DNA from: a virus
Virus record (IMG/VR): IMGVR_UViG_3300033064_003572
Coordinates: 1-30,252 of that record
Direction: 5' to 3' (one strand)
DNA length: 30,252 nucleotides
In this document: positions 2 through 27,637 of the stretch, piece after piece
Position numbering within the stretch: position 1 is the first letter of the stretch
Layout of the letters: every line of letters starts with the position of its first letter
Notes under the pieces: model-generated
The model's database searches: none
What the model saw: the letters and a program-made list of their open reading frames with translations, nothing else
What the model was told of the DNA's origin: nothing
Translations under genes and position numbers: made by a program

Positions 2-1660
2 GCTGCGGTAGTCACAGGCGGTTGTAACACCATCGTTGGTTCAATTGTGGGTACTGCTGGATTGTGTAACACAGTGGTATTAGCAGCTGGTACCACTGAA
101 AGATTGCGAGTTGATTCAACTGGGTTGACAATTAATGGAGCACCACTCACAGTGGCCGGCACATTCAATGTTTGTGGTACACGAAATATTGTGAGCTGTA
201 TCAGTGGTACAGGCAGCACCGGAACTGACAACTTCTTTGCTGGTAGCCTTGCTGGTTGTGCAAACACCACTGGCTGCTTCAACACCTTCATTGGTGTTGG
301 TGCTGGTTGCAGCAATACCTTCGGCAATAACAACACTTTTATTGGTATCTATGCTGGTCGCTGCAACACCACCGGCTGCGACAACTTTTTTGCTGGTTTC
401 TGTGCTGGTCTTCTCAATACCACCGGCTGCCACAACAACTTCTTTGGTCGAGAAGCTGGCAGATGTAACACCACTGGTAGCAACAACAATTTCTTTGGTT
501 TCAATGCTGGTCTCTCTAATACCAGTGGCAGCCTCAACTTCTTTGCTGGTCGCTGTGCTGGTCGCTGCAATACCGCTGGCTGTTACAACACCTTCATTGG
601 GTTCCGTGCTGGACACAACAACACCACCGGCAATGACAACACCTTCATTGGTCGTGGTACTGGTGGCAGCAATATCTCCGGCAGCTTCAACACGTTCATT
701 GGTCATTGTGCTGGTCAAGCCAATACTGTTGGCTGCCACAACACGTTCATTGGTCAGTGTGCTGGTTTCTGTACCACCAGCTTTAGCTTCAATAACAACT
801 TCTTTGGTCAGTGTGCTGGTTTCCGCAACAGCGGTGGCAGCAACAACAACTTCTTTGGTGTCTGTGCTGGTGGCTGCAACACCACTGGAAACGATAACAA
901 CTTCTTTGGTTTATATGCTGGTCGCAACAACTCCACTGGCTGCCACAACAACTTCATTGGAAGCTATGCTGGTCGCAACAACACCACCGGCATCAGCAAC
1001 ACGTTCATTGGTCAGTGTGCTGGTTTCTGCAACACCACTGGCAAACACAACAACTACTTTGGTGCCTGTGCTGGTTTGTTCAACACCACTGGCTGCTACA
1101 ACATGTTCTTTGGTTGCAATGCCGGTCGTGCTAACACCACTGGCATCGTCAACTTCTTTGCTGGTCGTTATGCCGGCGCCTGCAACACCACTGGCAGCAA
1201 CAATTTGTTCTTTGGATGTAGTTCCGGGGTAGGCACAGCAGGACTTGCAAACATTACTACAGAGTCAAATAGAATCATCATGGGCAATGATGCTCATACC
1301 TGTGCTCAGATTCAGATTGCCTTTACTGTGGTATCCGATGAACGTGACAAGTGCATATTTGGTGCTGTTCCACACGGTCGTGGATTCTTGCAACAAATCA
1401 ATCCGGTTAAATTTGCATTCAAAAATCGAAACACTGGCTGTTTGTCTGACGCAGTTGGCAAATATCGTTATGGATTTAAAGCACAGGAAATGCTGGCTGC
1501 TGAAGGTGACAAACCAGTCATAACCAGTGCTGACAATCCGGATAAATTACAACTAACCAGCGATTATCTAGTACCAGTTTTGGTAAATGCCATCAAAGAA
1601 CTCGGTGCAGAATTGGATGCACTGAAAGAAAGAGTAGCATTGCTAGAAATTAAATCTTGA
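2..1660 (+). CDS. Tail fibre protein with 17-residue repeats and C-terminal S74 chaperone domain (5' partial)
   Basis: The reading frame is open at the left window edge, so the true start lies upstream; the GTG at 47 is only the first start-like codon. After a short beta-rich lead-in come twenty tandem 17-residue units of the form NTTGxxNxFFGxxAGxx (212-1234), the kind of repeat seen in YadA-like trimeric adhesins and phage fibres. The last ~110 residues match the intramolecular chaperone of endosialidase family (peptidase S74): a SDERDK motif carrying the expected self-cleavage serine, the LQQINPVKFAFK segment, YGFKAQE, and a C-terminal coiled coil (ELGAELDALKERVALLE). Known role of the family: the chaperone drives trimerisation of the fibre and then cuts itself off. 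By inference this is a receptor-binding fibre or adhesin. The repeats are unusually rich in cysteine (about 26). A consensus sigma70 promoter begins at its stop codon. Confidence 0.85.
   Translation, partial: AAVVTGGCNTIVGSIVGTAGLCNTVVLAAGTTERLRVDSTGLTINGAPLTVAGTFNVCGTRNIVSCISGTGSTGTDNFFAGSLAGCANTTGCFNTFIGVGAGCSNTFGNNNTFIGIYAGRCNTTGCDNFFAGFCAGLLNTTGCHNNFFGREAGRCNTTGSNNNFFGFNAGLSNTSGSLNFFAGRCAGRCNTAGCYNTFIGFRAGHNNTTGNDNTFIGRGTGGSNISGSFNTFIGHCAGQANTVGCHNTFIGQCAGFCTTSFSFNNNFFGQCAGFRNSGGSNNNFFGVCAGGCNTTGNDNNFFGLYAGRNNSTGCHNNFIGSYAGRNNTTGISNTFIGQCAGFCNTTGKHNNYFGACAGLFNTTGCYNMFFGCNAGRANTTGIVNFFAGRYAGACNTTGSNNLFFGCSSGVGTAGLANITTESNRIIMGNDAHTCAQIQIAFTVVSDERDKCIFGAVPHGRGFLQQINPVKFAFKNRNTGCLSDAVGKYRYGFKAQEMLAAEGDKPVITSADNPDKLQLTSDYLVPVLVNAIKELGAELDALKERVALLEIKS
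212..1234 (+). repeat. Twenty tandem 51-nt (17-aa) coding repeats in the fibre gene
   Basis: Units follow NTTGxxNxFFGxxAGxx with a strict 51-nt period. One unit (773-826) has an extra residue and a diverged start (TTSFSF). Cysteines recur at unit positions 5, 13 and 17. The regular spacing suggests a repeated beta fold, one turn or strand pair per unit. Codon-level divergence between units shows this is an old coding repeat array, not a CRISPR or recent tandem duplication. The low-complexity composition creates long spurious ORFs in other frames. Confidence 0.9.
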
Positions 1661-1685
1661 CATTGGGTTTCCAAGACTATATAAT
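1657..1685 (+). promoter_or_regulatory. Consensus sigma70-type promoter for the glycan island
   Basis: TTGACA (1657-1662), exactly 17 nt spacer, TATAAT (1680-1685). Both hexamers are perfect. The -35 box overlaps the TGA stop of the fibre gene. The next ATG is at 1709, leaving a leader of about 17 nt. It should be read by unmodified host RNA polymerase, which suggests early expression of the downstream genes (inference). Confidence 0.8.
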
Positions 1686-1706
1686 CGTACTAGTCTTTTG
1701 GAAACC
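1666..1706. promoter_or_regulatory. Inverted repeat enclosing the -10 box
   Basis: Left arm 1666-1679 (GGTTTCCAAGACTA) pairs with right arm 1691-1706 (TAGTCTTTTGGAAACC), giving 14 bp with a 2-nt bulge. The 11-nt loop (1680-1690) holds the whole TATAAT box. There is no T-run after the right arm, so a classic terminator for the fibre gene is unlikely. It could be a repressor site on the promoter or a structured end for the fibre transcript. Confidence 0.55.
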
Positions 1707-1708
1707 TG

Positions 1709-13461: not shown

Positions 13462-14835
13462 TTAGCTGGATTTCTGGTAGGGTTGTGTTGGTGGATACGG
13501 ATTGGGTGGCAAATTACCACCTTGATCACCATTGGCTGCGTCTGGTAACAATGCTTCACTCAAGCTCTGACGGCTAGGTATGTTACCAAGGTCTGGGGTA
13601 TTCACAGTGTATGTATTGTTAACAAACGATGAGCGTAGAGTATCGTTGGCGGCACCTGGTGTGAGATTGGTTCTCACATTGCTTTCAATCTTGACCCAAC
13701 CTGATCCATTGTACCGGAACAGTCGATTGGGAAAGTAATCCAATCGTAATGCAAACTGTCCAGCAATGGGATTGGGTGGAAAATTAACACCTGCAGTGAC
13801 TGGCAATCCGTTGGGTGCTTGACCATCCCCAGTTAAGTAACCTGCGGTATAGCCATCACCTCTAGGCGAATTGCCATCATTGGCCAAGGTGCTGCTGGCA
13901 TTACTGATGGTGTAGTCAGCAGTGTAGGTGGCAGATTCAGGATTGGCAGGTGTGCCGTCGGAATTGGTTGCTACAATATAAAATTTCACAACATCAAATC
14001 CAGAGCGTGGTACTTCAGCTTCAGCCTGCACCAGGATAGCATCATTGATGGCCAAGTTTCGTGGACGTGTGCTTTGACGATCCTCAATGGTTTGTGGATT
14101 GGTTTTTTCTGTCCAGTATTCTGTATTGGCAATATCTGTACCTGGTGGAACATTTTTGTTTGATGTGTAATATTTGTCGCCATACAGCACTGTGACACCA
14201 CCTGGATAAAAATTGCCCGGATCCCAAATGTTAATGGGTTCAAACGGTTGTTTGGTAATTTGATCAAACTCTTGTGCATTGACCATGGGTGTGGCTTTCA
14301 CACGCCACAAGTGAGGTAACCAAGTTTGACTGAAACCTTCGCTGGCAAATGCAGCGTCTTGAATCACATACCACTTGGGCAAGGCCCTGGGTATGGTAGA
14401 ATCCAGTGGATTGTAGTCACGTAAATTGGGAAACTCTAGAACATCTCCGCTCATGAGTTTGCGACCCATGGTATCTAGCATGTCATTATAATGGAATGTG
14501 ATAAACACAGTGTCATTGTTCAAGAACAGACCAAACTGGGTGAGATCAAAGTCAATGTCCTGTGTTTTGTAAACACCACGCATGACATAGATATCCGGAT
14601 CATAGGTTCTGTCACGATTTTCTAACAGCAGTAAATCTTCAATAAACAGCGGATTAGTAGAATCATACTTGGGTAATGTAGCATCATTGTTACCGGTGTT
14701 GTCATTGATCTGCGGCCCAAGATATTTGTGCAGATACATGTCGGCTCCCCCAATCTGATACATTTCAGAGATGGTTCGGTCAAAGAATCGATAGTCGGCC
14801 GTTCTATTAGGCCTATACATGGAAAGTCTTGGCAT
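13462..14835 (-). CDS. 14: T4 gp14-like neck protein with C-terminal decoration modules
   Basis: The first ~200 residues resemble T4 gp14: LLLENRDRTYDPDIYVMRG, then a GDVLEFPNL turn (gp14 has GDLIYFPM), and an ALPKWYVIQDAAFASEGF / WRVKATPM end. gp14 forms the neck ring with gp13 below the portal. At 457 residues it is far longer than T4 gp14 (256). The extra part includes a CBM5/12-like module at 202-244 (Y-x-x-G-G-V...LYGDKYYTS...YW) and a RLFRYNGSGWVKI unit. The gene is head of the minus operon, preceded by a late promoter only 7 nt away, with no Shine-Dalgarno. Confidence 0.75.
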   Translation of the reverse strand: MPRLSMYRPNRTADYRFFDRTISEMYQIGGADMYLHKYLGPQINDNTGNNDATLPKYDSTNPLFIEDLLLLENRDRTYDPDIYVMRGVYKTQDIDFDLTQFGLFLNNDTVFITFHYNDMLDTMGRKLMSGDVLEFPNLRDYNPLDSTIPRALPKWYVIQDAAFASEGFSQTWLPHLWRVKATPMVNAQEFDQITKQPFEPINIWDPGNFYPGGVTVLYGDKYYTSNKNVPPGTDIANTEYWTEKTNPQTIEDRQSTRPRNLAINDAILVQAEAEVPRSGFDVVKFYIVATNSDGTPANPESATYTADYTISNASSTLANDGNSPRGDGYTAGYLTGDGQAPNGLPVTAGVNFPPNPIAGQFALRLDYFPNRLFRYNGSGWVKIESNVRTNLTPGAANDTLRSSFVNNTYTVNTPDLGNIPSRQSLSEALLPDAANGDQGGNLPPNPYPPTQPYQKSS

Positions 14836-14842
14836 AGTGTGT

Positions 14843-14850
14843 TATTTATG
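14843..14850 (-). promoter_or_regulatory. T4-type late promoter (CATAAATA) for gp14 operon
   Basis: On the minus strand CATAAATA lies 7 nt before the gp14 ATG (14835), close to the T4 late consensus TATAAATA. T4 late start sites lie about 6-8 nt downstream, so the transcript would begin at or next to the ATG. It is the only visible promoter for gp14, heme oxygenase, bilin reductase, gp15 and Nudix. It is back to back with a plus-strand sigma70 promoter. Confidence 0.65.
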
Positions 14851-14856
14851 CCCAGG

Positions 14857-14885
14857 TTGACTGGAAATGCCCAATCGATTATAAT
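14857..14885 (+). promoter_or_regulatory. Sigma70 promoter, leaderless arrangement
   Basis: TTGACT (14857-14862), 17 nt spacer, TATAAT (14880-14885). Only 6 nt separate the -10 from the ATG at 14892. The expected start site coincides with the A of ATG. Confidence 0.75.
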
Positions 14886-14891
14886 ACACAC

Positions 14892-15203
14892 ATGAAAGTT
14901 TTAAAGCTAAACCGCAGATATCAAATTTTTAAAGAACACGGGTACCAGGCTGGGTTGCGATTTGACACCTATGGCCAATCTGCTAGGATTATCGAGAAAA
15001 CCTGTAGTGAACGGCTAGGGTCCTCGGGCTATAGGTATAGCTGGCGGTCTGGCGGCCAACGCAGCTGGCATCCCGGTAGCAATTGGACTGGCTATTTTGG
15101 AAAAAGAAACGTATACGGCTCAACTCCGTATTTTATCATGTTTCAAAAAGAATCAGACTTGAGTTTTGTACTACTTTGTGCTGACTTGACCAAAAATGCC
15201 TAA
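14892..15203 (+). CDS. Small basic protein of unknown function
   Basis: 103 residues, rich in Arg, Lys, Gly, Ser and Tyr in the middle (SSGYRYSWRSGGQRSWHPG), with no known family that I recognise. It has no other in-frame Met until near the C terminus, so the ATG 7 nt downstream of a near-perfect sigma70 promoter is the start. This implies a leaderless mRNA. The position, an early-type promoter opposite a late operon, fits small host-takeover genes of phages (inference only). Confidence 0.65.
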   Translation: MKVLKLNRRYQIFKEHGYQAGLRFDTYGQSARIIEKTCSERLGSSGYRYSWRSGGQRSWHPGSNWTGYFGKRNVYGSTPYFIMFQKESDLSFVLLCADLTKNA

Positions 15204-15214
15204 TCTGCTATAAT
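15186..15214 (+). promoter_or_regulatory. Sigma70 promoter, leaderless arrangement
   Basis: TTGACC (15186-15191), 17 nt spacer, TATAAT (15209-15214), then 6 nt to the ATG at 15221. The -35 overlaps the end of the preceding gene. Confidence 0.75.
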
Positions 15215-15220
15215 TACAGT

Positions 15221-16384
15221 ATGACAACCACTAAAGCAAAACCCATGGTCCTAGCTGCAAAAGCCAATGTTAAATCATTGAACCCCCGTAGTCCAGACAC
15301 CAAGTATGTGGGCAATGAACCTGAATGGCTGGTGCAACCTGTGAGCAATCGCATCAGTAGACTGAGCCATGCGTTTGGGTGGTACAACTATTTCTACGGC
15401 AAAAAAGATGCCAAGGACTTTATTGCATTCTACTTGGATGCACACAATCGCAGCCGAGAAGCTAAGAAAATTCGTGCCCTGCCTGACAGCCAGATACACC
15501 TGACCACAGGTTGGTTGTGCCGCATGAGCACCATGGGTCTGGAACTGAGTGAGCCGGAGCAAGCCAAACTGGATGCATTCATTCAGAACGCATTGGCGGA
15601 ACAAGAAACAGACAAACCTGTAGCAAGTGCAGAAACCAAAGTGCCAGGACCTTCCATCCAGGATCGACTGCGAGAAAAAGCAAGTGAAGCAGCTGGTGAG
15701 CTTGAGGGCTTGTTCGATGACTTCATCACAGCAGGTTCAAAGATGTCTGCGCAGTTTCAACCCATCACAATAATTCGTGGACACAATATAGCACCACAGC
15801 TGATACATCAGATTCAACAGATCTGGAAACGTCATCTTGCAGAACTGGAAGCCGCGGTAGCAGGCAAAGATTCACAGTTGGTAGAAGGCTATGGCTATCT
15901 AACTAAAATTCAACTGAAACAACTGGTAAAGTTTGCTGAACAAGTGATTACTGATTGCAACAACTATGTGCAGATCAAGAAAGTTGAACGCAAGCCACGT
16001 GTCAAGAAAGCAGTGAGTCCAGAAAAAGTCACAGCCAAGTTCAAGTATCTCAAGACTTTTCCAGATCTCAAACTGGTGTCAGAACCTGCTGTGAAGCTGG
16101 TGAACGCAACAGAAGCGTGGTTGTACGACACTGTGAAGCGTAAACTGATCCATGTGGTTGGCGACACACACCGCGGCAACTTTACTGTAAAAAGTTCTGC
16201 TGTGATCGGGTTCGACACAGGCGCAAGTTCGCAGAAAACACTGCGAAACCCTGCAGCAACTATTCGAACACTGATGTCTGCAGGCAAGCCAGCCACACGC
16301 AAGATCTTCAAGGAACTGACCACAACCGAGACTCAATGGAACGGGCGTGGCAACCTTAATCTCATCATTCTCAAGGTGTGGTAA
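15221..16384 (+). CDS. Conserved-looking phage protein of unknown function
   Basis: 387 residues, soluble, mixed helical and basic. Central lysine/arginine-rich linker (QIKKVERKPRVKKAVSPEK) separates an N-terminal helical part from a C-terminal beta part (ATEAWLYDTVKRKLIHVV and FTVKSSAVIGFDTG). No catalytic motif stands out. It has its own sigma70 promoter and no Shine-Dalgarno, so translation from a leaderless mRNA is expected. It lies just before gp13. I cannot assign a role. Confidence 0.7.
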   Translation: MTTTKAKPMVLAAKANVKSLNPRSPDTKYVGNEPEWLVQPVSNRISRLSHAFGWYNYFYGKKDAKDFIAFYLDAHNRSREAKKIRALPDSQIHLTTGWLCRMSTMGLELSEPEQAKLDAFIQNALAEQETDKPVASAETKVPGPSIQDRLREKASEAAGELEGLFDDFITAGSKMSAQFQPITIIRGHNIAPQLIHQIQQIWKRHLAELEAAVAGKDSQLVEGYGYLTKIQLKQLVKFAEQVITDCNNYVQIKKVERKPRVKKAVSPEKVTAKFKYLKTFPDLKLVSEPAVKLVNATEAWLYDTVKRKLIHVVGDTHRGNFTVKSSAVIGFDTGASSQKTLRNPAATIRTLMSAGKPATRKIFKELTTTETQWNGRGNLNLIILKVW

Positions 16385-16387
16385 CGG

Positions 16388-16395
16388 GCTAAATA
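16388..16395 (+). promoter_or_regulatory. T4-type late promoter (GCTAAATA) for gp13
   Basis: GCTAAATA lies 18 nt before the gp13 ATG (16414), just after the stop of the preceding gene. It belongs to the same NTAAATA set seen before the sheath, tube, gp16-like and 27658 genes. Confidence 0.65.
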
Positions 16396-16396
16396 T

Positions 16397-16413
16397 CAGG
16401 GACGGAGTCCCTG
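16397..16413 (+). promoter_or_regulatory. 7-bp hairpin abutting the gp13 start, with the ribosome-binding site at its tip
   Basis: CAGGGAC (16397-16403), loop GGA, GTCCCTG (16407-16413): a perfect inverted repeat ending on the base before ATG. The only Shine-Dalgarno-like stretch, GGAG (16404-16407), lies in the loop and first closing base. It may tune translation of gp13. Confidence 0.6.
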
Positions 16414-17184
16414 ATGCAAGAACAACAACCCATAGACCTAGTAACACTCAAAAATAACTTGTTTGAGTACGTGCGCCTGATGTTGGGCCACCAGATCATT
16501 GACATTGAACTGGACCCAGCACACTTTGAAGCTGCATATCAAAAGACCATTGGCACTTACCGCCAACGTGCTAACAATGCATATGAAGAAAGTTACAGCT
16601 TCATGCAGCTGGTGAACCAGCAAAACATCTACACTTTGCCACAGGAAGTGCAGAGTGTTAGACAGATTTTCAAACGCAGCTTTGGTATAGCGTCGGGACC
16701 ATTTGGTTCAAACTTTGACCCGTTTAGCCAGGCACAAATGAATGTGTATCTGATCAACTTTAACCAATCAGGTGGTCTAGCCACTTACGATTTCTACAGT
16801 CAATACGTAGAGCTGGCAGCTAGAATGTTTGGTGGATTCTTAAACTACACCTGGAATCCAGTTACCAAAAAACTACAGTTGATCCGTAGCCCTGCAGGAG
16901 GAGGTGAAGTAGTGCTGTTGTGGACCTACAATCTCAAGCCTGAAATACAATTGCTAATCGACTTCCAAATTCAGCAATGGATCAAAGACTACCTAGTGGC
17001 GGCCTGCAAAATGATCATAGGTGAAGCAAGAGAGAAATTTGGCACTATCGCCGGACCCAATGGCGGCGGCACTCTCAACGGTGCAGCAATGAAAGGCGAA
17101 GCCAAAGCTGAGATGGAGGCGTTGATCACACAACTGGTGAATTATGTGGATGGCAGCGCTCCTCTTACTTTTGTGATTGGATAA
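16414..17184 (+). CDS. 13: T4 gp13-like neck protein
   Basis: 256 residues (T4 gp13: 309). N terminus (LKNNLFEYVRLMLGHQIIDIELDP) and C terminus (GGTLNGAAMKGEAKAEMEAL ... LTFVIG) follow T4 gp13, which ends with a similar helix and a G-I-L-V-G tail. Middle segments NYTWNPVTKKLQL and IQQWIKDYLVAACKMIIG also fit. gp13 and gp14 form the neck connecting head and tail. Here gp13 is on the plus strand, away from gp14 and gp15, which are on the minus strand upstream; T4 keeps 13-14-15 in one row. Confidence 0.8.
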   Translation: MQEQQPIDLVTLKNNLFEYVRLMLGHQIIDIELDPAHFEAAYQKTIGTYRQRANNAYEESYSFMQLVNQQNIYTLPQEVQSVRQIFKRSFGIASGPFGSNFDPFSQAQMNVYLINFNQSGGLATYDFYSQYVELAARMFGGFLNYTWNPVTKKLQLIRSPAGGGEVVLLWTYNLKPEIQLLIDFQIQQWIKDYLVAACKMIIGEAREKFGTIAGPNGGGTLNGAAMKGEAKAEMEALITQLVNYVDGSAPLTFVIG

Positions 17185-17196
17185 TTGACTAGCTTA

Positions 17197-17216
17197 CGGG
17201 CAGCATCTCGTGCCCG
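17197..17216 (+). terminator. Hairpin after gp13
   Basis: CGGGCA (17197-17202), 8-nt loop, TGCCCG (17211-17216). There is no U-run after it, so it is at best a weak terminator or an RNA-stabilising 3' end before the next promoter. Confidence 0.4.
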
Positions 17217-17235
17217 GTGTTCACTTATAATTCAT

Positions 17236-17264
17236 TTGACACCATCTGTTATTCGTAGTATAAT
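17236..17264 (+). promoter_or_regulatory. Perfect-consensus sigma70 promoter, leaderless arrangement
   Basis: TTGACA (17236-17241), 17 nt spacer, TATAAT (17259-17264), then 7 nt to the ATG at 17272. It drives the exonuclease, deoxyribonucleotidase and dNMP kinase. Confidence 0.8.
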
Positions 17265-17271
17265 TTTTAAC

Positions 17272-17793
17272 ATGAGTTCACTTATGTTTGATATTGAAAC
17301 ACTCGGGGTAGGACCTTCCGCTACCATTTTGACCATTGCTGCACAGAGTTTTGATCCGTTGGGAACAGGATATGGATCGCGGCAATACTATGCTAGAATC
17401 ACGTTAGAAAGTCAGGAAAATCGTAATATTGATGACAGCACAATTGCCTGGTGGGCAACTCAGCCCAAAGCTCAAGCAGAAGCCTTTGCCGATGATAATC
17501 GAATTCCTTTAGATCAGGCTCTGGATGAATTGGGTAAGCTAATATGGACTAGTAACTATTTGTATGCAAATGGTCCTACTTTTGACTGTACAATAATAGA
17601 ACACGCCTACAAGAGCTACAACAAGCCCATACCCTGGCAATATTACAAAGTAAGAGATACTCGAACCATATACAGTCTGTGGCCTGACTTACCAAAGCCG
17701 CCCACAAGTCACCATGCTCTTCAAGATTGCCGACGACAGATTGATATGTTACAAGCCACCCTTAAACATCTTAACATTGAAAGATTAGTATGA
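17272..17793 (+). CDS. dexA: DEDDh 3'-5' exonuclease (DexA/Rv2179c-like)
   Basis: 173 residues. Motif Exo I is FDIET (D7, E9), Exo II NGPTFDCTIIE (D105), Exo III SHHALQDCRRQ (H147-x4-D152), the RNase-H-fold DEDDh set. T4 DexA is a 3'-5' exonuclease of this type, 227 residues; the shorter Rv2179c-like family is also a fit. It degrades DNA or RNA from 3' ends, and may help break down host nucleic acid. I set the start at 17272 because a perfect promoter lies 7 nt before it and the catalytic D is at residue 7; a longer frame from 17185 would run through the promoter. Overlaps the next gene by 4 nt. Confidence 0.8.
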   Translation: MSSLMFDIETLGVGPSATILTIAAQSFDPLGTGYGSRQYYARITLESQENRNIDDSTIAWWATQPKAQAEAFADDNRIPLDQALDELGKLIWTSNYLYANGPTFDCTIIEHAYKSYNKPIPWQYYKVRDTRTIYSLWPDLPKPPTSHHALQDCRRQIDMLQATLKHLNIERLV

Positions 17794-27145: not shown

Positions 27146-27637
27146 ATGAAGAAATTAGAAGAATTATTCGACTTACCGAGATCCGACGAATTAGAATCTG
27201 CAGAACACTCACTGAATATAGATGAAACCAAAATAGCATTAGCAGAAATTGACGACGTTATTGATAAAATAGATTCTGCATTGCCAATGGTTAGAGATTT
27301 ACAAGCGTCTGACGTAGAGATGGACGACTTGGCAAAAAAAGCAACTGAATCGTTTGACGAGTTGATGTCACTAGGGATGAATGTGGATTCACGATTTGCT
27401 GCTGAAATCTTCAGTGTGGCAGGCGCTATGTTAGGGCATGCACTCACAGCCAAGCAGGCCAAGTTGAATAAGAAGTTAAAAATGATTGATCTACAGTTAA
27501 AAAAAGCCAATCTAGATATGAAACAAGCTGATGGTGGTGAAGCAGCACCGCAGCCGGGCCAGGGACATGTGTTAACCCGCAATGAATTATTGGATAGATT
27601 GTTAGGCGATAGAAAGACAAATGCCAAAAAAGGCTAA
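27146..27637 (+). CDS. 16: Small terminase subunit candidate, T4 gp16-like
   Basis: 163 residues, as in T4 gp16 (164). It is helical: DELMSLGMNVDSRFAAEIFS, then VAGAMLGHALTAKQAKLNKK, resembling the central helices and the M-G-x-x-x-x-x-N-x-x-x-L-K pattern of gp16. gp16 recognises DNA and stimulates the large terminase. The large subunit gp17 is not in this window. The stop codon lies inside the following late promoter. Identification is moderately sure. Confidence 0.65.
   Translation: MKKLEELFDLPRSDELESAEHSLNIDETKIALAEIDDVIDKIDSALPMVRDLQASDVEMDDLAKKATESFDELMSLGMNVDSRFAAEIFSVAGAMLGHALTAKQAKLNKKLKMIDLQLKKANLDMKQADGGEAAPQPGQGHVLTRNELLDRLLGDRKTNAKKG

Follow-up and report, generated by a model that had tools for sequence, protein, structure and literature searches.

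This study concerns promoters that run directly into start codons in a 30,252-base IMG/VR virus record (IMGVR_UViG_3300033064_003572), whose full stretch is called the window below. The window carries T4-like structural genes (tail sheath, tail tube, head-tail adaptor, and head protein), and three of its plus-strand genes, referred to here as genes 1, 2, and 3, begin a few nucleotides (nt) after a sigma70-type promoter. Together with its relatives, the window points to an uncultured T4-like phage group in which many genes, early-type as well as late, appear to start at the first letter of their mRNA and to lack the customary ribosome-binding site, an arrangement that appears to have been kept in evolution. 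On the sequence comparisons below, we consider it very probable that promoters are fused to start codons in both early-type and late units, giving leaderless messages.

Promoter-start junctions and their conservation

A first-pass annotation had placed TTGAC(N)-17-TATAAT sites at 14857, 15186, and 17236 with ATG following after 6, 6, and 7 nt, and the three sites read exactly as claimed. They belong to a set of only four in the window that combine an exact TATAAT, a 17-nt spacer, and at most one −35 mismatch, all of them on the plus strand and each directly before a gene. When the window was simulated 150 times with a first-order Markov model, TTGAC-16..18-TATAAT arose 0.1 times per run on average and never with an ATG 5–8 nt on.

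A survey of strong promoters was carried out on the window and 13 relatives (14 records); only ATG was accepted, so the AUG start of its sites holds by selection. Sigma70-type matches (TTGACA/TATAAT, 16–18 bp spacer) numbered 86, compared with 10 in reversed sequence. The first-pass annotation had proposed scanning genomes of this clade for the same spacing, and the scan agreed with it: among 78 unique strong promoters, 19 had an ATG at a distance of exactly 6 nt (1.3 on average in shuffles, 6 at most) and 27 had one at 5–8 nt (5.3 on average in shuffles, 16 at most). A chance origin of the junctions was rejected on the basis of the simulations and shuffles. A second cluster of ATGs lay 29–31 nt from the promoter. 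At +1, leadered early promoters often have ATA or TTA, triplets that differ from ATG by one or two bases, and the third base from the expected start was A in 24 of 31 of them, so that a leaderless start is often only one or two bases away.

Spacings were also compared across IMG/VR, by the fraction of sites opening a reading frame among the matches listed and not by counts. Of the 129 matches listed for TTGAC-18-TATAAT-6-ATG, 82 opened an open reading frame (ORF) that spanned 60 codons or more or continued past the contig end, with no Shine-Dalgarno (SD) sequence in any; at a control spacing of 12 nt an ORF was opened in 35 of the 116 matches listed, 10 with an SD. The early-type arrangement is thus not restricted to the clade of the window.

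Relatives were taken from viral contigs (7 loci for gene 1, 80 of 137 kept for gene 2, and 80 of 432 kept for gene 3), the loci retrieved were searched for homologs of 16 window genes, and each different upstream context was counted once. A −10 box was scored as the hexamer TANNNT with at most one mismatch, 5–8 nt before ATG, and an SD by four-mers at −16 to −5. Gene 1 had TANNNT 5–6 nt before ATG in all 34 distinct contexts (59 hits, 2 unusable, the remainder duplicates). Gene 3 had its −10 box at 5–7 nt in 97 of 102 contexts (160 hits, 1 unusable), the distance being 6 nt in 75, 5 nt in 19, and 7 nt in 3. The claim that the three window start codons lack an SD extended to these families: none was seen at the window ATGs, and an SD stood in 0/34 gene 1 contexts and 0/102 gene 3 contexts. 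Thirteen control genes had the box at 5–8 nt in 0 of 528 contexts. Among controls, an SD preceded the head-tail adaptor (86/87), sheath (67/67), and tube (36/36) genes; it was also absent from some, such as the head gene (0/78) and the gene at 27146 (0/19).

Around the gene 3 box, the −35 element and flanks of homologs are mostly unrelated, and the −35 is weak in many of them; 88 of 97 carry a TGn extended −10. Box distance and SD absence were kept in genes 1 and 3 while the flanks, even the −35 boxes, diverged, in line with the selection on leaderless starts that the first-pass annotation had argued for. If transcription begins at the A of ATG, a pyrimidine is expected at −1, and this was found in 96/97 contexts for gene 3, 28/34 for gene 1, and 14/14 leaderless-type contexts for gene 2. 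The gene 3 codons from ATG1 to the next Met vary synonymously (9 spellings of MSSLM among 39 contexts, 7 of MADLM among 37), as protein-coding sequence does, and the possibility of misread start codons was rejected for this reason. The gene 3 frame is open further upstream as far as a TTG at 17185, and conservation argues against that codon as the start.

Late promoters and switching between start types

The first-pass annotation had described the leaderless messages as early. A restriction to early genes was not borne out: T4-type late boxes show the same arrangement. The window head gene, on the minus strand, is preceded by a conserved box, CATAAATA, which fits the T4 late consensus TATAAATA with one mismatch, and its homologs have TAAATA 4–8 nt before ATG in 73 of 78 contexts. 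Across the window and the 13 relatives, TAAATA boxes stood 3–8 nt before a candidate ATG 132 times, with no SD before any, and 15–30 nt before one 163 times, with an SD in 122; these counts pool redundant records (G002 and G005 have an identical late-sigma gene). The reverse-complement motif, used as a control, gave 6 at 3–8 nt, and one of the 132 close starts also has an SD-led in-frame alternative. Sequence after the late leaderless starts was not richer in A (0.366 vs. 0.378). A gp55-like late sigma was found in 5 of the 13 relatives, several of which are fragments, and none was matched in the 30-kb window fragment. The one in relative G002 matched phrog_12791 (E 1.5e-73, PHROGs); it is encoded at 77813-78754 on the minus strand, is about 310 amino acids (aa) long, and has a long N-terminal part unmatched by T4-type relatives.

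The head gene also offers a swap of start codons. In 70 distinct contexts whose alignment reached the start, 62 begin with ATG, all with a late box at 3–8 nt and none with an SD. The remaining 8 are SD-led and start with ATT in 7 cases and GTG in 1, never ATG; SD-led AUU homologs occur in L012, L044, L059, L100, L109, G009, and G011. Other SD-led families start with ATG (dNMP kinase in 85/86 SD contexts, tube in 31/31). In a tree of 95 rows, made by a quick method without bootstrap (84 leaderless, 10 SD with ATT, 1 SD with GTG), the leaderless label requires 7 changes, at least 6 of them forced. The SD-ATT cassettes are alike, so recombination of one cassette may underlie several of these changes. 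As IF3 disfavours initiation on leaderless messages and also at AUU codons in E. coli, the exchange of leaderless AUG for SD-led AUU may preserve weak or IF3-gated translation. No other result is as surprising or as poorly explained as this swap, which hints at weak or gated translation rather than at the advantage for phage genes during takeover that the first-pass annotation had suggested.

Gene 2 changes state within its family. By a first count, a −10 box lay at 5–8 nt in 13 of 52 distinct contexts (160 hits, 69 unusable). A fuller classification of 142 homologs gave 50 leaderless, 72 with promoter, leader, and SD, 15 with SD only, and 5 unresolved; in five of the 50 leaderless homologs, an in-frame codon 24 nt further along is preceded by an SD-like four-mer. 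A 100-row tree requires 5 changes of the leaderless label, and well-supported branches force at least 4 of them. The first-pass annotation had held that homologs with longer leaders would speak against leaderless starts. Such homologs exist for gene 2 (72/142) and not for genes 1 and 3, and since the leadered versions have an SD, they were read as switches within the family and not counted against the leaderless state. At one locus, L059, a leaderless ATG is retained out of frame before the SD-led start of gene 2, probably as a recombinant arrangement.

The features are collected in Table 1. The protein of gene 1 matched no Pfam or PHROG family. The gene 3 product scored 123.3 bits against PF16473 (curated cut-off 27), which predicts its exonuclease activity. 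The −35 element of the gene 2 promoter falls within the 3′ end of gene 1, and the divergent region between gene 1 and the head gene is retained in most gene 1 contexts. The fourth strong promoter, a perfect TTGACA-17-TATAAT (1657-1709), sits in a strong inverted repeat (RNA fold −23.5 kcal/mol, z −6.4), possibly an operator, a terminator, or both. Positions 2-1660 hold a highly repetitive ORF with NTTG..NTFIG-type repeats and a fibre-like look.

Table 1. Promoters, genes, and intergenic features of the window.
Feature	Position	Strand	Description
Gene 1 promoter, sigma70-type	14857-14891	+	−35 TTGACT 14857-14862; 17-nt spacer; −10 TATAAT 14880-14885; 6-nt discriminator ACACAC; ATG 14892
Gene 1	14892-15203	+	103 aa; predicted leaderless
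Gene 2 promoter, sigma70-type	15186-15220	+	−35 TTGACC 15186-15191; 17-nt spacer; TGC-TATAAT, −10 15209-15214; TACAGT; ATG 15221
Gene 2	15221-16384	+	387 aa; phrog_11903 (function unknown); predicted leaderless in the window, SD-led in other relatives
Gene 3 promoter, sigma70-type	17236-17271	+	−35 TTGACA 17236-17241; 17-nt spacer; −10 TATAAT 17259-17264; 7-nt discriminator TTTTAAC; ATG 17272
Gene 3	17272-17793	+	173 aa; Rv2179c-like 3′-5′ exonuclease (PF16473); predicted leaderless
T4-type late box CATAAATA	14836-14850	−	Box 14850-14843, plus 7 nt ACACACT; directly before ATG at 14835
Head and packaging protein gene	13462-14835	−	phrog_11591; 457 aa; predicted leaderless late gene; SD and AUU start in some relatives
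Divergent intergenic region	14836-14891	.	56 bp; two opposed predicted leaderless promoters, T4-type late (minus) and sigma70-type (plus)
Fourth strong promoter TTGACA-17-TATAAT	1657-1708	+	23 nt before ATG 1709; leadered contrast case, inside hairpin

Proposed mechanism and alternative explanations

In the mechanism that we propose, host RNA polymerase with its housekeeping sigma would bind the TTGAC-17-TATAAT promoter and start transcription at the A of ATG itself or at most 1–2 nt away, as box distances of 5–8 nt predict. Ribosomes would then recognise the message by its terminal 5′-AUG and not by an SD. The same design would be used at T4-type late promoters, where the TAAATA box would be read by a phage gp55-like sigma. 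Part of the early-type and late units would be leaderless in this way, and the rest would carry a leader of about 20–30 nt with an SD. The purpose may be weak or IF3-sensitive translation, or compactness. A more specific version, in which leaderless AUG acts as an IF3-sensitive gate, so that a subset of early and late genes is held low or tied, in infection, to the ratio of IF3 or free 30S to 70S ribosomes by a translational timing or dosage device at the promoter-start junction, seems to us rather unlikely as it stands.

Several observations weigh against leaderless initiation as a property of this group. The T4 superfamily phages with cultured hosts mostly do not have the arrangement, so it is no general rule, and a superfamily-wide trait was rejected because T4, Syn9, phiM12, OspM_OC, PA5oct, and AG-345-F15 are without it. 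A phage-encoded bS21, which could conceivably act as a helper, occurred in none of the 13 records. Five of the 102 gene 3 contexts have no box by our rule, two of these having a TACACT variant at 6 nt. Late-box spacing varies (4, 5, or 7 nt), so that a leader of 1–3 nt is possible for some late genes. Several surveyed sites (G001:147733, G002:139128, G003:37234, and G003:15731) have an SD-led alternative or lack a long ORF. At G001:147733, TATAAT-6-ATG opens a frame of 7 codons, possibly a leaderless upstream ORF; its stop and the ATG of an SD-led gene overlap. At G002:139128, on the minus strand, the ATG in the leaderless position shares its frame with a GTG start that lies 21 nt downstream and is SD-led, and both starts may be used.

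The promoters could be real and translation could begin at an internal Met (Met5 in gene 3, Met9 in gene 2) after SD-less leaders of 12–24 nt. These residues are conserved, in 84 of 97 contexts for gene 3 and in 12 of 14 leaderless-type contexts for gene 2, and in some gene 2 relatives the equivalent DNA reads as a leader with AAAGGA followed by an SD-led start aligned to Met9 of the window. Yet Met9 in the window has no SD where those relatives have AAAGGA, and the next in-frame Met of gene 1 is not close to its start. From ATG1 to the internal Met, synonymous changes make the codons highly variable; every leaderless-type context has ATG1 in frame (as the selection rule demands), with the motif [MI]xDxE at residue 3, 4, or 5 in zero-based numbering. 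We regard internal starts as very unlikely. Translation mainly from longer read-through transcripts, with the ATG-adjacent promoter minor or accessory, appears to us highly improbable. Genes 1 and 2 are in tandem, 17 nt apart, so a gene 1 transcript covers gene 2, but a read-through message would likewise be without an SD for genes 1–3, and the conserved distance of 5–7 nt would be left unexplained. In addition, transcription of gene 1 and of the minus-strand head gene runs outward from the 56-bp region in opposite directions, so neither feeds the other.

The alternative that we take most seriously accepts the leaderless starts and denies them a function: promoter and start codon would have drifted together as a by-product of genome compaction. 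The frequent A at the third base of leadered promoters, the repeated changes of state in gene 2, and the ORF fraction at the 6-nt spacing elsewhere in IMG/VR among the matches listed all fit this explanation, which we consider quite possible, though not the better bet. Genes 1 and 3, on the other hand, are near-invariant across diverged flanks, and the head gene couples strictly, leaderless with AUG and SD with AUU or GUG; both suggest that a property of expression has been kept in these families. Leaderless initiation from fused promoters remains the reading that we prefer for the early-type and late units. Should 5′-end mapping agree, leaderless initiation would be a recurrent option across the genome in this phage lineage, available to host-sigma and gp55-type promoters alike. 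Programs that depend on an SD to place start codons would put such starts in the wrong position. The natural swaps among homologs (leaderless AUG, SD-led AUG, and SD-led AUU) would offer a ready experiment on the purpose of leaderless initiation.

Comparison with known systems

Leaderless mRNAs of bacteria and phages share a 5′-AUG at or near the transcription start, the use of AUG only, and the lack of an SD; the lambda cI message from PRM is leaderless. The clade of the window differs in that its leaderless state is predicted from DNA sequence, in that many genes of one clade are concerned, and in that two promoter classes take part. The infC gene has an SD-led AUU start codon. The SD-led AUU of the head gene resembles it, whereas the head gene is a phage gene in which AUU alternates with leaderless AUG. 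The statement of the first-pass annotation that leaderless mRNAs are rare in most bacteria was not supported by the part of the literature consulted, in which 171 were mapped in Sinorhizobium meliloti (PMC3616915). Phage transcripts are described as "often leaderless" in the consulted portion of another source (PMC5312081). Our search of the open-access literature, with hits seen mostly by listing, found no account of a leaderless design in T4-like phages; PMC9004378, PMC7892883, PMC3014915, and PMC4631060 were among the sources consulted.

The T4 late TATA box is placed about one helical turn before the start site in the section consulted of PMC2988020. The late promoters of T4 (TATAAATA, read by gp55-RNA polymerase) resemble the putative ones of the window clade in having a TATA-type box without a −35 element, and relatives of the window encode a gp55-like sigma. 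The distances differ: T4 has 31 late boxes at 15–30 nt and 1 at 3–8 nt, whereas the window clade has 132 at 3–8 nt. Boxes at 3–8 vs. 15–30 nt numbered 0 vs. 18 in Syn9, 0 vs. 6 in phiM12, 1 vs. 9 in OspM_OC, 3 vs. 19 in Melnitz, 1 vs. 30 in AG-345-F15, and 4 vs. 35 in PA5oct. The TerL of relative G001 has its nearest cultured counterpart at 51% (PA5oct group). In PA5oct, a cultured P. aeruginosa phage, TTGACA-17-TATAAT-7-ATG occurs at the annotated start of an exonuclease, gp244 (NC_071039:158206-158244, L338). As a homolog of gene 3, gp244 was rejected because the two could not be aligned. The Far-T4 phages of freshwater viromes are alike in their T4 core genes and in being uncultured, and no mention of promoters or gp55 was found in the parts consulted of the paper on them (PMC4360716). 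In the host search, one query had no match in genome contigs; another matched a 3.4-kb contig in a Legionella metagenome-assembled genome and had three distant matches; none of these, the Legionella contig included, was used.

The closest parallel for the late class was found in HTVC008M, a cultured Pelagibacter phage of the T4 superfamily, which shares the close late boxes (14 at 3–8 nt vs. 8 at 15–30 nt). Eleven of these 14 lie at exactly 5 nt, and all 14 starts coincide with annotated coding sequence starts. HTVC008M differs from the window clade in its marine SAR11 host, in its distance (late sigma about 31% identical), and in that leaderless early promoters are not marked in it. It is a cultured phage in which the predicted late leaderless class can be checked now.

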